Source of the DNA: an uncultured Massilia sp.
Lineage (GTDB): Bacteria > Pseudomonadota > Gammaproteobacteria > Burkholderiales > Burkholderiaceae
Assembly (NCBI GenBank): GCA_946481275.1
Contig: CAMLMV010000012.1
Location: 82,662 to 146,661 of the forward strand
DNA length: 64,000 bases
Direction of reading: 5' to 3'
Under the pieces are notes generated by a model. It saw nothing but the letters and a program-made list of their open reading frames with translations. It ran no database searches and was not told the DNA's origin. Position 1 is the stretch's first letter, and each line of letters begins with the position of its first letter. Below, piece after piece: positions 17,502-30,599 of the stretch. The position numbers and the translations under genes are program-made.

Positions 17502-18887
17502 TCAGAAGCTGAAGGGCATCCTGACCATCAGCGTGACGTCCGGCGTATCGCGCGTGAGGCCGGCGCCCACCGATACGCTCAGGGTGCGGTTGTTCTTCAG
17601 CCGGTACGAGTAGCCCAGCAGCAGCGTGCCCAGCTGCACGCGCACGGAGCCCGGGATCACGTCGCCGTTCTGGTGCATGCGGCCCACCGAGTTGTGGTCG
17701 TAGCCGATGCTGAACGACGCCCGCTCGTTCAGTGCCAGGCCCATGCCGAAGTTGAAGCCGAACACGTCGCCCGGTTCCACCGTACCCAGCAATTCCTTGC
17801 CGCCGTTCAGCACGGTGCGGTAGACGTTGCCGCGCTTGAAGTTCTTCGTATAGCTGAAGCCGCCGAAGAAAATGGCCGGGTCGGACGGCAGCAGCCACGT
17901 CACGCTCGGCTGCAGGGAATAAAAGCCGGAACCGGTCGGCAGGTCGAGCGGCAGGCCCGTCCCGGTGACGTTCTGGCCCACGCAGCGGGTCTGGCAATCC
18001 GTCACGACCTGGAACGGGTCGCGGCCCGTGCGCGACTTGAAGCGCAGTCCGGCGATGTAGTATGGCGTGTCGACGCCGCCGTCGTTCAGCTGGTAGCGCC
18101 AGCCCAGCTCGATGTCGCCGATGCCCTTGCCGCTCGTCTCGAACGCGCGCTCGGCCGCCGTGCCCGTGAACAGCTCGCGGCTGACGGTCGAATCGCTGCG
18201 GTAGACGTACGGGATCTTCGCTTCCAGTTCCAGGCGGTTGTCGAAGCCGTAGCGGAACGTGGCGGTGGCCGTCGTCGTGTTGCGCTTCACTTCGCGCACG
18301 TCGAGCAGGCCGATCAGCAACGCCGGGATCACCGTGTAGCCGACGAGGGCCACGCGGTTGCTCGACGAATATCCGTACTGGACGGACGGCTCGAACACGA
18401 CTTTGTCCCGCGGCGTCAGCACGCCCGGGGTCTCGAAGATTGGCGCCACTTCCGGCGTGCGCGGCGCGGGCGGGCGGCCGACGGCGTCGCTGCCCGCCTG
18501 CGCCTGGCCGGCACCGCCCGTACCGCGCAGCGGCGCCAGGCGGCCCGGGTACACGGGATCCGCGAACGGGACCGCGAGCCTGGGCGGCGCCTCGATCGGG
18601 CCGGCCTGCGCCGGCGCGTCCGGCTGGGGCGCCGGCAGGTTGCCGGTGCCGCGCATCCGCTCGAGCTGCGACGGGGCCGCCGCCGTCGCGGTGTTCGCCG
18701 GCGGTGCCACGCCGCTCGCGCGCAACTGGCGTTCCAGTTCGTCGACGCGCGCGCGCTGCTCTTCCAGCTGTTGTCGCATGATCTTGAGCTGCTCGAGGAG
18801 GTCAGGACCGGACTGGGCACCGGCCGGGATGGCCGCCAGGGCCACGCTGACACCAATCACGCTGTACAGCGCTGGAATTTTTTGCAT
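17502..18887 (-). CDS. FapF-like coiled-coil outer-membrane beta-barrel, copy A
   Basis: A 461-aa exported protein. It has a signal peptide (1-24, AGA-Q), a heptad-rich coiled coil at about 30-57 (LLEQLKIMRQQLEEQRARVD), a Pro/Ala-rich linker of about 90 residues, and then a barrel from about 155 to the C-terminal Phe (MPFSF). The barrel opens VLTPRDKVVFEPSVQYGYSSS and contains a Cys pair (TDCQTRC). Coiled coil plus barrel matches FapF, the trimeric secretion channel of Pseudomonas functional amyloid. Position after a C39 peptidase and a small secreted protein fits the fapD-E-F order. Some databases mislabel such proteins as transporters. It has a clear paralogue at 24882-26099. Confidence 0.72.
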   Translation of the reverse strand: MQKIPALYSVIGVSVALAAIPAGAQSGPDLLEQLKIMRQQLEEQRARVDELERQLRASGVAPPANTATAAAPSQLERMRGTGNLPAPQPDAPAQAGPIEAPPRLAVPFADPVYPGRLAPLRGTGGAGQAQAGSDAVGRPPAPRTPEVAPIFETPGVLTPRDKVVFEPSVQYGYSSSNRVALVGYTVIPALLIGLLDVREVKRNTTTATATFRYGFDNRLELEAKIPYVYRSDSTVSRELFTGTAAERAFETSGKGIGDIELGWRYQLNDGGVDTPYYIAGLRFKSRTGRDPFQVVTDCQTRCVGQNVTGTGLPLDLPTGSGFYSLQPSVTWLLPSDPAIFFGGFSYTKNFKRGNVYRTVLNGGKELLGTVEPGDVFGFNFGMGLALNERASFSIGYDHNSVGRMHQNGDVIPGSVRVQLGTLLLGYSYRLKNNRTLSVSVGAGLTRDTPDVTLMVRMPFSF

Positions 18888-18911
18888 AAGTTTTCTCCAG
18901 GTAAAAATCCG

Positions 18912-19415
18912 TCACCTGCCGGCGGCGGCGGTATTGAGCGCGTTCGCGAGGCTGGACTGGAAATTCATGGCCTGCAGCAGTCCGCGTGCGTTCACGCTTG
19001 CATTGATGATGGTCTGGTTGTTGATCAACTGGTTGTTCAGGCTGTTCTGGATGACGGTGCCGCCCAGCGTCGTGTCGCCCATCTGGACGTTGAACGTACC
19101 GCCGCCGTTCTGGATCAACCTCACCTGGTTGGCCGTGTCGGCGGTCAGTGCACTGCGGCCGCTCGTGAGCTGGCCGAGGTCGCCCAGTTCCAGCTGGCTG
19201 CGTTCGGCCACGTTGCCGTTGATCGTGACGATGCGCTCGATGCCGAGCGTCACCGCCAGGCCGTTGTCGGTGATGAAGCCACCGCGGTAGTCGTCCAGCG
19301 AGTCCGCCGCGACGGCGTTGTCGCTGCTGAACGGATTGTCCGGGCCCTCGGCGTAGCCGTGCGTCGCGATCGCGGCGCTGGCCAGCACGAGGCCGATCTG
19401 GACGGGTATGCGCAT
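18912..19415 (-). CDS. Small secreted protein in FapE position, copy A
   Basis: A 167-aa protein. A signal peptide (1-22) is followed by a double-glycine motif in SLDDYRGGF (GG at 45-46). The body is rich in Asn, Gln, Ile and Leu with beta-prone stretches (VIQNSLNNQLINNQTIINAS) and ends AAAGR. The paralogue in copy B keeps the RGGF motif, the ERIVT segment and the end. Its position between the C39 peptidase and the FapF-like channel equals fapE. It lies 11 bp after the peptidase gene with an aggaga site. Function is inferred only: secreted minor component or export factor. Confidence 0.7.
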   Translation of the reverse strand: MRIPVQIGLVLASAAIATHGYAEGPDNPFSSDNAVAADSLDDYRGGFITDNGLAVTLGIERIVTINGNVAERSQLELGDLGQLTSGRSALTADTANQVRLIQNGGGTFNVQMGDTTLGGTVIQNSLNNQLINNQTIINASVNARGLLQAMNFQSSLANALNTAAAGR

Positions 19416-19426
19416 GGGGTCTCCTG

Positions 19427-29116: not shown

Positions 29117-29129
29117 TCCTTTGGCCGTG

Positions 29130-29143
29130 TCGGACGCGTCCGA
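29130..29143. promoter_or_regulatory. Palindrome, candidate activator site of locus B
   Basis: TCGGACGCGTCCGA is a perfect 14-bp palindrome, 45 bp upstream of the -24 element and beyond the IHF-like site. That is where a sigma-54 activator site would be expected. No equal palindrome was found in locus A. Confidence 0.45.
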
Positions 29144-29285
29144 AGGCCTGTTGGGAATGCTTGCCACTCCCGCTGGCGTCGCTTGCCGACAGGCTGTCAA
29201 CGCGGCGGTACAGGTGCGTCGCTCATCGGTGGGCAACGCACGAGCTCGTCTGGACAGTGCCCGGCCGCGCCAGGGGCGGCGGGCG

Positions 29286-30599
29286 TCAGGGCTGGATGCC
29301 GTGCTTGCTCAGGAGCCGGTACATCGTCGTGCGCGACACGCCCAGCTCACGGGCGGCGCGACTGACGTTCTGCCCGCTGCGCTGCAGGCATTCGCGCAGG
29401 GCGAGCCGCTCGGTGCGGGCGCGGACGTCGTCCAGGGCGGCCGGCATGACGAGCGGGGTGTCCAGCCCCAGGTCCTGCGGCGTGACGAGGCGCCCGTCGG
29501 CCATCACGAGCGCGCGCCGGACCCGGTTGATGAGCTCGCGGACATTGCCCGGCCACGCGTGGTCCAGCAGCGCGGAGACGGCCCGGTTGGAAAACCCGGT
29601 CAGCCGGGGCGACCGCTCGTCGGCGTACAGGCGAAAGAAGTGTTCGGCGAGGGTGACAACGTCTTCGCGCCGTTCGCGCAGCGCCGGCACGGTCACGGGC
29701 AGTACCGCGAGCCGGTAGTACAAATCCTCGCGGAAGGTGCCCGCCGCGACGGCGCGCTGCAGCTGCACGTGCGACGCGGCGATGACGCGTACGTCCACTC
29801 GGATGGTGCGCGTACTGCCCAGGCGGCAGATCGTCTTCTCCTGCAGGAAGCGCAGCAGGTTCGCCTGCAAATCCTTCGGCAGGTCGCCGATCTCGTCGAG
29901 GAACAGGGTGCCGCCGTGGGCCGATTCGATGAGCCCGGCCTTGGCTCGCGCGGCGCCGGTGAACGCCCCCCGTTCGTAGCCGAACAGCTCGGACTGGATC
30001 AGGTTCGGCGCGATGGCGCCGCAATTGATCGGCACAAAGGGGCCACTGGCGCGCGCCGATTGCGCGTGGATGGACTGCGCCGTCAGCTCCTTGCCGCTGC
30101 CGCTTTCTCCCCAGAGCAGCACGGGGGCGTCGACCCGGGCCACGCGCGCCACCTGCGCGCGCAGGCGCACCATCGCATCGGCCCGGCCGACCAGCAGGCC
30201 GTCATCGTCCCGCCGTGCGGACGGCCGCCGCAGCATGGCCCAGCCATGGGCATGGCCGAGCGTCCAGGCCAGCCGGCGCGGGTCGACGGGCTCCGTGTGG
30301 TAGTCGGCCAGGTGCTCCACGACGAGATCGCGACAGGCGGCATGGTCGATGTCGCAGGGACGGAACACGCCGATCCACTGCGTGTCGCGGTGGCGGCGCA
30401 GGAAGCCGTCGAGATCGAACGACCGCAGCAATGAGCGCGCCCGCAGCAGCAGGCCGACGGGGTAGCCGTCGGCGCGCAGCACGCGGTCCGCATCGCCGAG
30501 GTTGTCCACGCAACAGGTATCCCAGTCATGGATGGGACCAGTCATCAGCGCGGCGGTGTGAACGTCGTCGGGAGCAATGCAGAGCAGGCGCTTGCGCAT
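29286..30599 (-). CDS. VpsR-like sigma-54-dependent activator, copy B
   Basis: A 437-aa paralogue of the 23212-24546 regulator, starting MRKRLLCIAPDD. The N-terminal domain (1-125) has diverged more than the rest. The AAA+ domain keeps GESGSGKE, GYERGAFTGA and GTLFLDEIG, and the Fis-type HTH reads QNVSRAARELGVSRTTMYRL. It should therefore contact sigma-54. It lies upstream of the locus B promoter in the same arrangement as copy A, suggesting dedicated local control or cross-control between loci. The start is set by a GGAG site and alignment with copy A. Confidence 0.88.
   Translation of the reverse strand: MRKRLLCIAPDDVHTAALMTGPIHDWDTCCVDNLGDADRVLRADGYPVGLLLRARSLLRSFDLDGFLRRHRDTQWIGVFRPCDIDHAACRDLVVEHLADYHTEPVDPRRLAWTLGHAHGWAMLRRPSARRDDDGLLVGRADAMVRLRAQVARVARVDAPVLLWGESGSGKELTAQSIHAQSARASGPFVPINCGAIAPNLIQSELFGYERGAFTGAARAKAGLIESAHGGTLFLDEIGDLPKDLQANLLRFLQEKTICRLGSTRTIRVDVRVIAASHVQLQRAVAAGTFREDLYYRLAVLPVTVPALRERREDVVTLAEHFFRLYADERSPRLTGFSNRAVSALLDHAWPGNVRELINRVRRALVMADGRLVTPQDLGLDTPLVMPAALDDVRARTERLALRECLQRSGQNVSRAARELGVSRTTMYRLLSKHGIQP

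Follow-up and report, generated by a model that had tools for sequence, protein, structure and literature searches.

The functional amyloid of Pseudomonas is exported by the products of the fap operon (fapABCDEF). According to Rouse et al. (2017; PMC5557850), secretion requires the active-site Cys of the periplasmic FapD, the first ~70 residues of FapE yielded no detected peptides, the linker of FapF is possibly processed, and the Fap proteins lack canonical C39 sequences, the target of FapD being unclear. A 2025 review (PMC12822426) states that FapD is thought to process the N-terminus of FapE and the periplasmic region of FapF. Two further papers describe a mapped −24/−12 RpoN promoter and the activator BrfA for the fap operon of P. 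fluorescens (PMC9207406) and characterize BrfA as a cyclic di-GMP-sensing enhancer-binding protein (PMC13101488). Dueholm et al. (PMC3792158) report that hidden Markov models (HMMs) of FapD and FapF match many non-Fap proteins, which likely belong to larger families, and that FapC linkers vary greatly. Here we describe two Fap-like loci that lie in tandem in a 64,000-nucleotide stretch of DNA from an uncultured Massilia sp., a soil bacterium (contig CAMLMV010000012.1), referred to as the window, and a leader-like motif that is common to two of their small proteins and to the linker of their outer-membrane barrel. The open-licence literature yielded no description of this Fap-like version, only Pseudomonas Fap or unrelated work.

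The two six-gene blocks are complete and follow one another head to tail, both on the minus strand (copy 1, 24882–30599; copy 2, 17502–24546), and the region 17502–30599 extends exactly from the stop codon of the copy 2 barrel to the ATG of the copy 1 activator. The GC content of the window is 66%. Each block encodes, in this order, a sigma-54 activator, a large low-complexity protein, a small protein of the VIQNSG family, a C39 peptidase, a small RGGF protein and a barrel; signal peptides and coiled coils were assigned by eye throughout. All twelve genes that a preliminary description had arranged in two blocks of identical order and strand were present as stated, and Pfam recognized Sigma54_activat, VpsR and Peptidase_C39 in both copies, in agreement with the VpsR-like activators and C39 peptidases proposed there. 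Its reading of the last three genes as the order fapD-E-F is borne out by homology for D and F and is suggested for E. The proteins of the two copies are 76% (activator), 62% (large), 56% (VIQNSG), 68% (C39), 54% (RGGF) and 73% (barrel) identical.

A collection of species genomes contained 528 relatives of the C39 protein, from which 76 loci were kept. These loci, four short pieces of the nearest whole genome (G001) and the window made up 81 sequences for comparison, and the gene set is conserved among them (VIQNSG in 79, C39 in 81, RGGF in 80 and barrel in 74). Loci L009 and L011 have identical C39 rows, L014 and L015 have identical VIQNSG proteins, and G001 and L005 are seemingly one strain. 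The loci are thus not independent, and the counts given below overstate the sample size.

A leader motif in the small proteins and the barrel linker

Both small proteins carry the motif, hydrophobic(−12)-L(−7)-R-G-G/A/T, after their signal peptide, and the barrel carries it in its periplasmic linker. We counted it by a strict pattern, [VILMA]x4-L-x3-RG[GATS], in which position −1 may be G, A, T or S, and took up to 150 residues before the barrel as the linker region. The strict pattern was found in 92/94 RGGF, 69/95 VIQNSG and 52/87 barrel-linker open reading frames (ORFs), compared with 3.1%, 0.4% and 1.1% of the corresponding shuffles (0.4–4.3% overall). It was absent from the barrel domain (0/89), the C39 peptidases (0/94), the large proteins (0/71) and the activators (0/53), and occurred in five of 130 other ORFs with signal-like starts. 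An RGG in the copy 2 large protein (VVARGGS) was rejected as a leader because it does not fit the register and no large ORF has a match. When the RGGF proteins were aligned at RGG, Leu occupied position −7 and V, A, L, I or M position −12 in 92/92, with two of the 94 free of the motif. Among the VIQNSG ORFs, L...[RKQ]GG was present in 74 of the 95, variants (RGK, RGR, SGG) in 13 and no match in eight; this count is lowered because at least three of the 95 (two from L130, one from L135) are large-type repeat proteins. The match in L052 falls inside its signal peptide.

The leader consensus of double-glycine substrates of C39 peptidases has hydrophobic residues at −12 and −7 and GG at −2/−1, and the RGGF and VIQNSG proteins appear to carry leaders of this kind. 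In a search of 5.8 billion proteins, L-x3-RGG was present in 119 of the best 120 of 219 RGGF relatives and in all of the best 120 of 1627 VIQNSG relatives. The 240 RGGF and VIQNSG matches listed were nearly all nameless or annotated as "hypothetical protein", with one ribonuclease name.

The same register, ending in RG[RK][FY], was found in canonical FapE in 14/14 loci. In the database, RGR[FY] was present at residues 50–69 of all 19 FapE matches that reach far enough N-terminally, and one of the 20 starts inside the motif. FapA candidates were found in three of the 14 canonical loci (L114, L115, L116), and these FapA-like proteins also have the leader register; a fourth match (L117) resembles a membrane protein. 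A separate pattern, strict in register, was run on ORFs with signal-like starts near and far from C39 genes. It matched 45/489 near versus 2/876 far from window-type C39 genes, that is, those of the kind found in the window, and 11/79 versus 0/57 for canonical ones.

What is new here is the motif common to the RGGF protein, the VIQNSG protein and the barrel linker, which suggests the cut sites of the protease. It marks the sister-clade counterparts of FapE and FapF, which are the FapD targets considered in the review, plus a third protein, and we infer that the FapD-type protease cuts at this RGG-type motif. Because the clade keeps double-glycine leaders in the FapE counterpart, in another small protein and, in many cases, in the linker of the pore, it names exact bonds to test; by register, it also directs attention to RG[RK][FY] in canonical FapE. 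PMC5557850 leaves the target of FapD in Pseudomonas open, so the leaders of a sister clade matter.

In two FilA/DUF6160-type proteins, L143:7875-8834 (MTDTAMSNATGQ) and L141:254-1621 (MDESAMSDVSGQ), we observed the −12/−7/−2 register behind the signal peptide, with Gln at −1. A second FilA-type protein of L143 (6805-7656) lacks the Gly.

The peptidase and the barrel beside Fap and Fil

Residues 156–461 of the copy 2 barrel (306 residues) match the solved FapF chains (PDB 5o67) with an E-value of 1.8e-31. Among the NCBIfam models, both barrels match FapF best (7.8e-41 and 2.5e-42; 140–145 bits), as opposed to 4.2e-11 and 3.7e-13 (43–50 bits) for FilC of the Fil "putative pilus" system. The peptidases match FapD best (2.2e-38 and 6.7e-40; 132–137 bits), in a near tie with FilB (7.5e-38 and 5.7e-37; 128–131 bits). 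The preliminary description had named a better match to an unrelated secretion family as the alternative for these two proteins; the profiles favour Fap for the barrel and leave a near tie for the peptidase, which the phylogenetic tree separates from both. FilA/DUF6160 and FilD gave no match among the block proteins in Pfam and NCBIfam. Fil membership was therefore rejected, since the barrel prefers FapF and FilA and FilD were not found. The Cys, His and Asp of the C39 active site are kept in 116/116 aligned rows. No ATP-binding cassette (ABC) domain was found in the C39 proteins (220 and 229 aa), and no ABC gene within the block.

Canonical loci were sought with the FapD model in 369 genomes of the class and 14 control genomes. 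The model matched 45 of the 369, none above its cut-off, and none of the controls, and 35 stretches were compared. Fourteen (L114–L127) have FapB-, FapC-, FapD- and FapE-like genes, 12 of them with FapF as well; the FapB, FapC, FapE and FapF proteins of L114 match the NCBIfam models of the same names, below the cut-offs. Twelve stretches (L128–L132, L135–L140, L148) carry window-type genes and some are incomplete, L128 being without a VIQNSG match and L138 without either small protein. Eight (L133, L141–L147) are Fil-like by peptidase or barrel scores, and L134 is the tandem region of G001.

We built a maximum-likelihood tree from 116 C39 rows (14 canonical, 94 window-type, eight Fil-like). 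One branch (99/95) separates the 14 canonical FapD rows from the rest, another (99/96) does so for the 94 window-type rows, and the Fil-like rows do not form one group. One genome, G013, has a canonical (L118) and a window-type (L148) locus on one contig; its FapE reads RGRY where its window-type protein reads RGGF. Because G013 carries both, the two are parallel systems, and we read the window-type system as a sister clade able to coexist with Fap, not as Fap itself. It is filed as a sister variant rather than as Fap proper because no FapB/FapC subunit with Fap repeats was recognized in it. This clade may be part of the non-Fap FapD/FapF signal reported by Dueholm et al.

Two observations relate to these families. 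At position 92 of the aligned C39 domain (copy 2), Asp is found in 90/94 window-type peptidases and Arg in 12/14 canonical FapD; this site is a candidate for what may lie behind the differing preference at −1. Locus L133 (G001 contig C41, ~246 kb) has a FilB-type C39 (1.7e-63), a FilC-type barrel (2.2e-75) and a FilD/FadL-type porin (1.3e-119); a nearby ORF that begins like a signal peptide carries MSDTELSTVSGQ, which fits the leader register.

Subunits, expression control and the tandem copies

The C-terminal 62 residues of the copy 2 large protein matched 71 ORFs in 64 of 111 sequences searched. The 60 of these that are free of a contig-end cut are 190–785 aa long, some starts being uncertain, with a median of 46% Gly+Ala, and 49 of the 60 lack Cys. 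In the middle of both window proteins, Gly+Ala reaches 68%. The sequence of the last ~46 residues is GTFDMSNxMSxVGQSAAGxxVxSQNxGxSSLVQQSVNVQxNL. Matches to this C-terminal module were weakest for L129 and L130 proteins (E 1.8e-5 to 1.8e-3); a protein of L135 was found at 0.0018 with the copy 1 query. The module bridges weakly to multi-repeat FapC-like proteins of the same clade (L129, L130, L135). The preliminary description had called the subunits unlike FapB and FapC; the NCBIfam models agree with this, and the weak bridge to FapC-like repeats tempers it. The large protein is thus a putative FapC counterpart. In L129, two large-type proteins (L129:3595-4500 and L129:7058-7981) contain several near-identical copies of NAFQxxxGITQVQQNNGxNNAMQQxVAVS, FapC-repeat-like in look, and could represent an ancestral FapC-like form of the Gly/Ala-rich subunit.

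An hhalign comparison showed that the VIQNSG and RGGF families are related (93%, E 2.5e-7). The VIQNSG family compared with FapE gave an unconvincing E of 0.004. When an HMM of the canonical FapB/FapC repeats was run on 15,572 ORFs, nine of the 16 matches listed were VIQNSG-type, two of these nine being large-type proteins. Position in the block, leader register and a weak hhalign match to canonical FapE suggest that the RGGF protein is a distant relative and counterpart of FapE.

Both activators have Sigma54_activat, Fis-type helix-turn-helix and VpsR domains above the Pfam cut-offs. For the promoters, 57 of the 71 large ORFs were scored, 14 being left out for short upstream DNA or an unclear start; a match to at least 9 of 12 positions of the −24/−12 consensus was present within 300 nt upstream of 49 of the 57, compared with 8% of shuffles. 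A scan of the whole window was at chance (2 sites found, 1.99 expected), so the case for the promoters is one of position and conservation only. In the canonical loci, a sigma-54 activator lies nearby in 12/14, and a sigma-54-like site was present in the 1,350 nt scanned in 11/14, a count without a shuffle control. We rejected the idea that the sigma-54 wiring is new, as had been suggested; published work on P. fluorescens fap (PMC9207406, PMC13101488) already describes the RpoN promoter and BrfA.

The duplication noted in the preliminary description is real and local. The same tandem arrangement was found in four other assemblies (L005–L008), some cut at one end, and a search for barrels alone placed paired barrels 7.2–7.5 kb apart on one contig in 6/62 genomes of the genus (G001, G386, G390, G391, G395, G421). 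Because both sets show the paired arrangement, the tandem is not an assembly artefact. In four further genus genomes the two copies are on separate contigs or lie megabases from each other. The C39 tree places the copy 1 genes (window, L005–L008) on one branch (100/100), next to a group (97/82) that contains copy 2 together with the genes of other Massilia that have a single copy; branch and group join at 100/94. This points to an old split or an incoming copy: the tandem would have arisen either by an old duplication with losses or through a copy from elsewhere.

The barrel is present in 57/62 genus genomes, and the C39 peptidase, at E 1e-40, in 71/294 sampled genomes of the family (8/44 genera). 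The closest C39 relative is that of M. kyonggiensis (98% at the protein level), and G001 has 20% of sampled words in common with the window. In part of the relatives (e.g., Rhodoferax and Polaromonas; many Comamonadaceae) the barrel gene has the opposite orientation and lies next to the activator. The linker motif is absent from seven of one set of inverted-barrel loci (L036, L043, L045, L046, L066, L068, L071, L074; all but L036), and other inverted barrels (L031, L033, L038, L060, L069) have it. On the L076 contig, labelled as an Akkermansia muciniphila metagenome-assembled genome, the locus groups with Rhodoferax, which is probably binning contamination. A short direct repeat, TTCGGGGTCAGAGCAC, occurs twice directly downstream of the copy 2 barrel (window 17302–17501).

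Table 1. Features of the two blocks, with positions in the window.
Feature	Position	Strand	Basis
Copy 1 sigma-54 activator, VpsR-type sensor domain	29286..30599	-	Pfam Sigma54_activat 5.2e-68, VpsR 7.9e-9, HTH_8 1.5e-8; putative BrfA-like role
Copy 1 candidate −24/−12 promoter TGGCACCGATCCTGCG	29070..29085	-	9/12 consensus; 78 nt upstream of large gene
Copy 1 large Gly/Ala-rich secreted protein, 442 aa, putative FapC counterpart	27679..29007	-	signal peptide by eye; found by copy 2 C-terminal piece at 1.4e-23
Copy 1 large protein, C-terminal Fap-repeat-like module	27682..27819	-	C-terminal-piece search
Copy 1 VIQNSG small protein, 133 aa	27217..27618	-	no Pfam or NCBIfam match up to E 1; 1627 relatives with copy 2 as query
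Copy 1 VIQNSG leader RQDGLLARQRGG	27409..27444	-	predicted cut after GG; −12 not hydrophobic (R)
Copy 1 FapD-type C39 peptidase, 220 aa	26558..27220	-	Peptidase_C39 6.1e-18; FapD model 2.2e-38
Copy 1 RGGF small protein, FapE-like, 140 aa	26125..26547	-	relatives search, profile-profile comparison, motif
Copy 1 RGGF leader VGPAELDSARGG	26422..26457	-	predicted cut before F
Copy 1 FapF-type coiled-coil outer-membrane barrel, 405 aa	24882..26099	-	FapF model 7.8e-41
Copy 1 barrel linker motif LGAARLDDLRGK	25905..25940	-	K at −1, hence outside strict pattern
Copy 2 sigma-54 activator	23212..24546	-	Pfam Sigma54_activat 2.5e-67, VpsR 3.8e-12
Copy 2 candidate −24/−12 promoter TGGCACTGAAACTGCA	22993..23008	-	10/12 consensus; 80 nt upstream of large gene
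Copy 2 large secreted protein, 775 aa, Ser/Thr/Asn-rich then Gly/Ala-rich	20601..22928	-	ORF and composition
Copy 2 large protein, C-terminal Fap-repeat-like module	20604..20741	-	C-terminal-piece search
Copy 2 VIQNSG small protein, 142 aa	20113..20541	-	1627 relatives at E up to 1e-3
Copy 2 VIQNSG leader ADLGKLEHSRGG	20314..20349	-	leader pattern
Copy 2 FapD-type C39 peptidase, 229 aa	19427..20116	-	Peptidase_C39 2.7e-23; FapD model 6.7e-40
Copy 2 RGGF small protein, FapE-like, 167 aa	18912..19415	-	219 relatives; hhalign of family vs canonical FapE, E 4.1e-5
Copy 2 RGGF leader VAADSLDDYRGG	19278..19313	-	leader pattern
Copy 2 FapF-type coiled-coil outer-membrane barrel, 461 aa	17502..18887	-	FapF model 2.5e-42; PDB 5o67 FapF 1.8e-31
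Copy 2 barrel linker motif 1 AAPSQLERMRGT	18645..18680	-	leader pattern
Copy 2 barrel linker motif 2 VYPGRLAPLRGT	18519..18554	-	leader pattern

Proposed export route and comparison with described systems

The homology of the peptidase and the barrel to FapD and FapF, the peptidase clade, the conserved gene set, the −24/−12 sites and the motif form the basis of the following proposal. Each block is probably an operon for Fap-type pore-mediated export, belonging to a sister clade of canonical Fap, in which C39 cuts the leaders and a matrix fibre forms outside. A VpsR/BrfA-type activator, probably responsive to cyclic di-GMP, would switch on the operon from its sigma-54 promoter, and the large, VIQNSG and RGGF proteins would leave the cytoplasm via Sec. 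The Sec-type signals that we assigned to the peptidase and its putative substrates would place the cutting in the periplasm, where the FapD-type C39 would cut the RGGF (FapE-like) and VIQNSG proteins after the double-glycine leader (h−12, L−7, R−3, G−2, G−1) and, in many species (52/87 barrels examined), would use this motif to cut the FapF-type pore in its linker. Subunits and pore would thereby become available for export. Fap-repeat-like sequence is present at the C-terminal end of the large Gly/Ala-rich protein (and, judged by eye, in its N-terminal part), and this protein may then form the main matrix fibre outside the cell, with nucleator or anchor roles for the small proteins. The tandem copies would be diverged paralogues with different fibre proteins, so that two matrices could be switched separately.

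Several results weigh against this proposal. The FapD and FapF matches lie far under the equivalog cut-offs (for FapF, 140–145 bits against 700). The NCBIfam FapB, FapC and FapE models did not match the window proteins (FapE up to E 1), and an HMM built from canonical FapB/FapC repeats alone reached VIQNSG-type ORFs only at E 0.45–8.4. The hhalign match between the RGGF family and canonical FapE (70%, E 4.1e-5) covers just 40 columns, the leader and the FGIEM region, and those of the VIQNSG family to FapB (E 0.024) and FapC (0.06) are unconvincing. AlphaFold gave no usable fold for the VIQNSG protein (pLDDT, its per-residue confidence, 46.6) or the copy 1 large protein (36.1). As for the motif, Arg stands at −12 of the copy 1 VIQNSG leader, seven relatives show RGK or RGR, the strict motif is absent from 35/87 window-type barrel linkers, and the N-terminal parts of canonical FapF have a loose motif in 3/12, compared with 25% of shuffles. 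Position −1 is small in classical C39 substrates, so the R/K of FapE is unusual. Near Fil-like C39 genes the register pattern matched 2/44 ORFs (2/8 loci), compared with 0/24 far from them. Finally, cleavage, secretion and its order, the fibre, its amyloid nature and cyclic di-GMP control are, for this clade, proposed from sequence.

L-x3-RG[GAT] could alternatively be a docking or export signal rather than a cut site, with the small proteins and the pore linker binding each other or the coiled coil. The motif does occur in the pore itself, its Arg at −3 is nearly constant although C39 leaders do not usually need it, and canonical FapE has R/K at −1. However, hydrophobic −12, L−7, G−2 and G−1 make up the C39 leader register, the catalytic residues are invariant in the C39 rows, and PMC5557850 indicates that Pseudomonas FapE loses its N-terminus and that secretion needs the FapD Cys, and we regard docking as unlikely. 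We lean only mildly away from a second possibility, that the fibre is a non-amyloid fibre or glue whose Gly/Ala middle forms polyglycine-type helices or is disordered, leaving the pore and the protease as the Fap-like parts. The 68% Gly+Ala, the failure of the FapC model to match and the lack of a confident fold for the large protein are consistent with it, whereas the resemblance of the C-terminal module to Fap repeats via the bridging proteins and the great variation of FapC linkers (PMC3792158) count against it.

The nearly equal FilB and FapD scores of the peptidase would allow an assignment to Fil instead of the Fap branch; this is very improbable in view of the FapF preference of the barrel, the missing FilA/DUF6160 and FilD matches, the separation of window-type peptidases in the C39 tree and the Fil-like locus that the nearest genome has elsewhere (L133). 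Similarly, two adjoining copies with the same order and strand might be a recent, redundant duplication without separate roles, but identities of only 54–76%, fibre proteins of 442 and 775 aa and the position of the copy 1 branch beside the copy 2 and single-copy group, which indicates an old split or an incoming copy, make this quite unlikely.

Beyond the export route proposed for each block, we tentatively suggest, with some doubt, that one code serves the stand-alone periplasmic C39 peptidases (FapD, the window clade and FilB). It would consist of a Sec signal followed by h−12/L−7/G−2, with −1 set by clade (G here, R/K in canonical FapE, Q in some FilA). One protease would cut the FapE-like protein, the nucleator-like protein and the pore linker, coupling pore opening to maturation, and the tandem would encode two separately switched fibres. 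This suggestion is weakened because the strict register was found in just the 2/44 signal-bearing ORFs near Fil-type C39 genes. The system would be a widespread matrix-export system of Burkholderiales with largely nameless small proteins, and its Gly/Ala-rich fibre protein is of possible interest for materials.

Curli (type VIII secretion) resembles the window system in role only, as an outer-membrane pore for unfolded matrix subunits; no curli family is among the listed Pfam and NCBIfam matches, and no search for curli by name was made. The double-glycine (C39, peptidase-containing ABC transporter) export of bacteriocins and microcins shares the C39 fold and the leader register; in contrast, the window block has no ABC transporter gene, and its peptidase and substrates have Sec-type signals. 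The Fil system (FilA–FilD, NCBIfam NF050077–NF050080) likewise has a C39 peptidase (FilB), a FapF-related barrel (FilC) and, in some FilA/DUF6160-type proteins (L143, L141), a leader in the same register, whereas no FilA, FilD or FilC-type gene was found in the window blocks. BrfA of P. fluorescens is also an RpoN-dependent activator adjoining an operon, fap, with a −24/−12 promoter, and the window activators are likened to it by role and domains, not by BrfA sequence. Unlike Pseudomonas Fap, the window blocks have no protein recognized by the FapB, FapC or FapE models, a Gly/Ala-rich putative major subunit, a VIQNSG protein in the place of FapC, and RGG instead of RGR/RGK, with the motif also in many pore linkers; they belong to a separate clade, in tandem in some species. 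What they have in common with Pseudomonas Fap is a FapD-type C39 peptidase, a FapF-type barrel with an N-terminal coiled coil, a FapE-like protein with the same leader register, the order D-E-F, and a sigma-54-type site with an enhancer-binding activator nearby.

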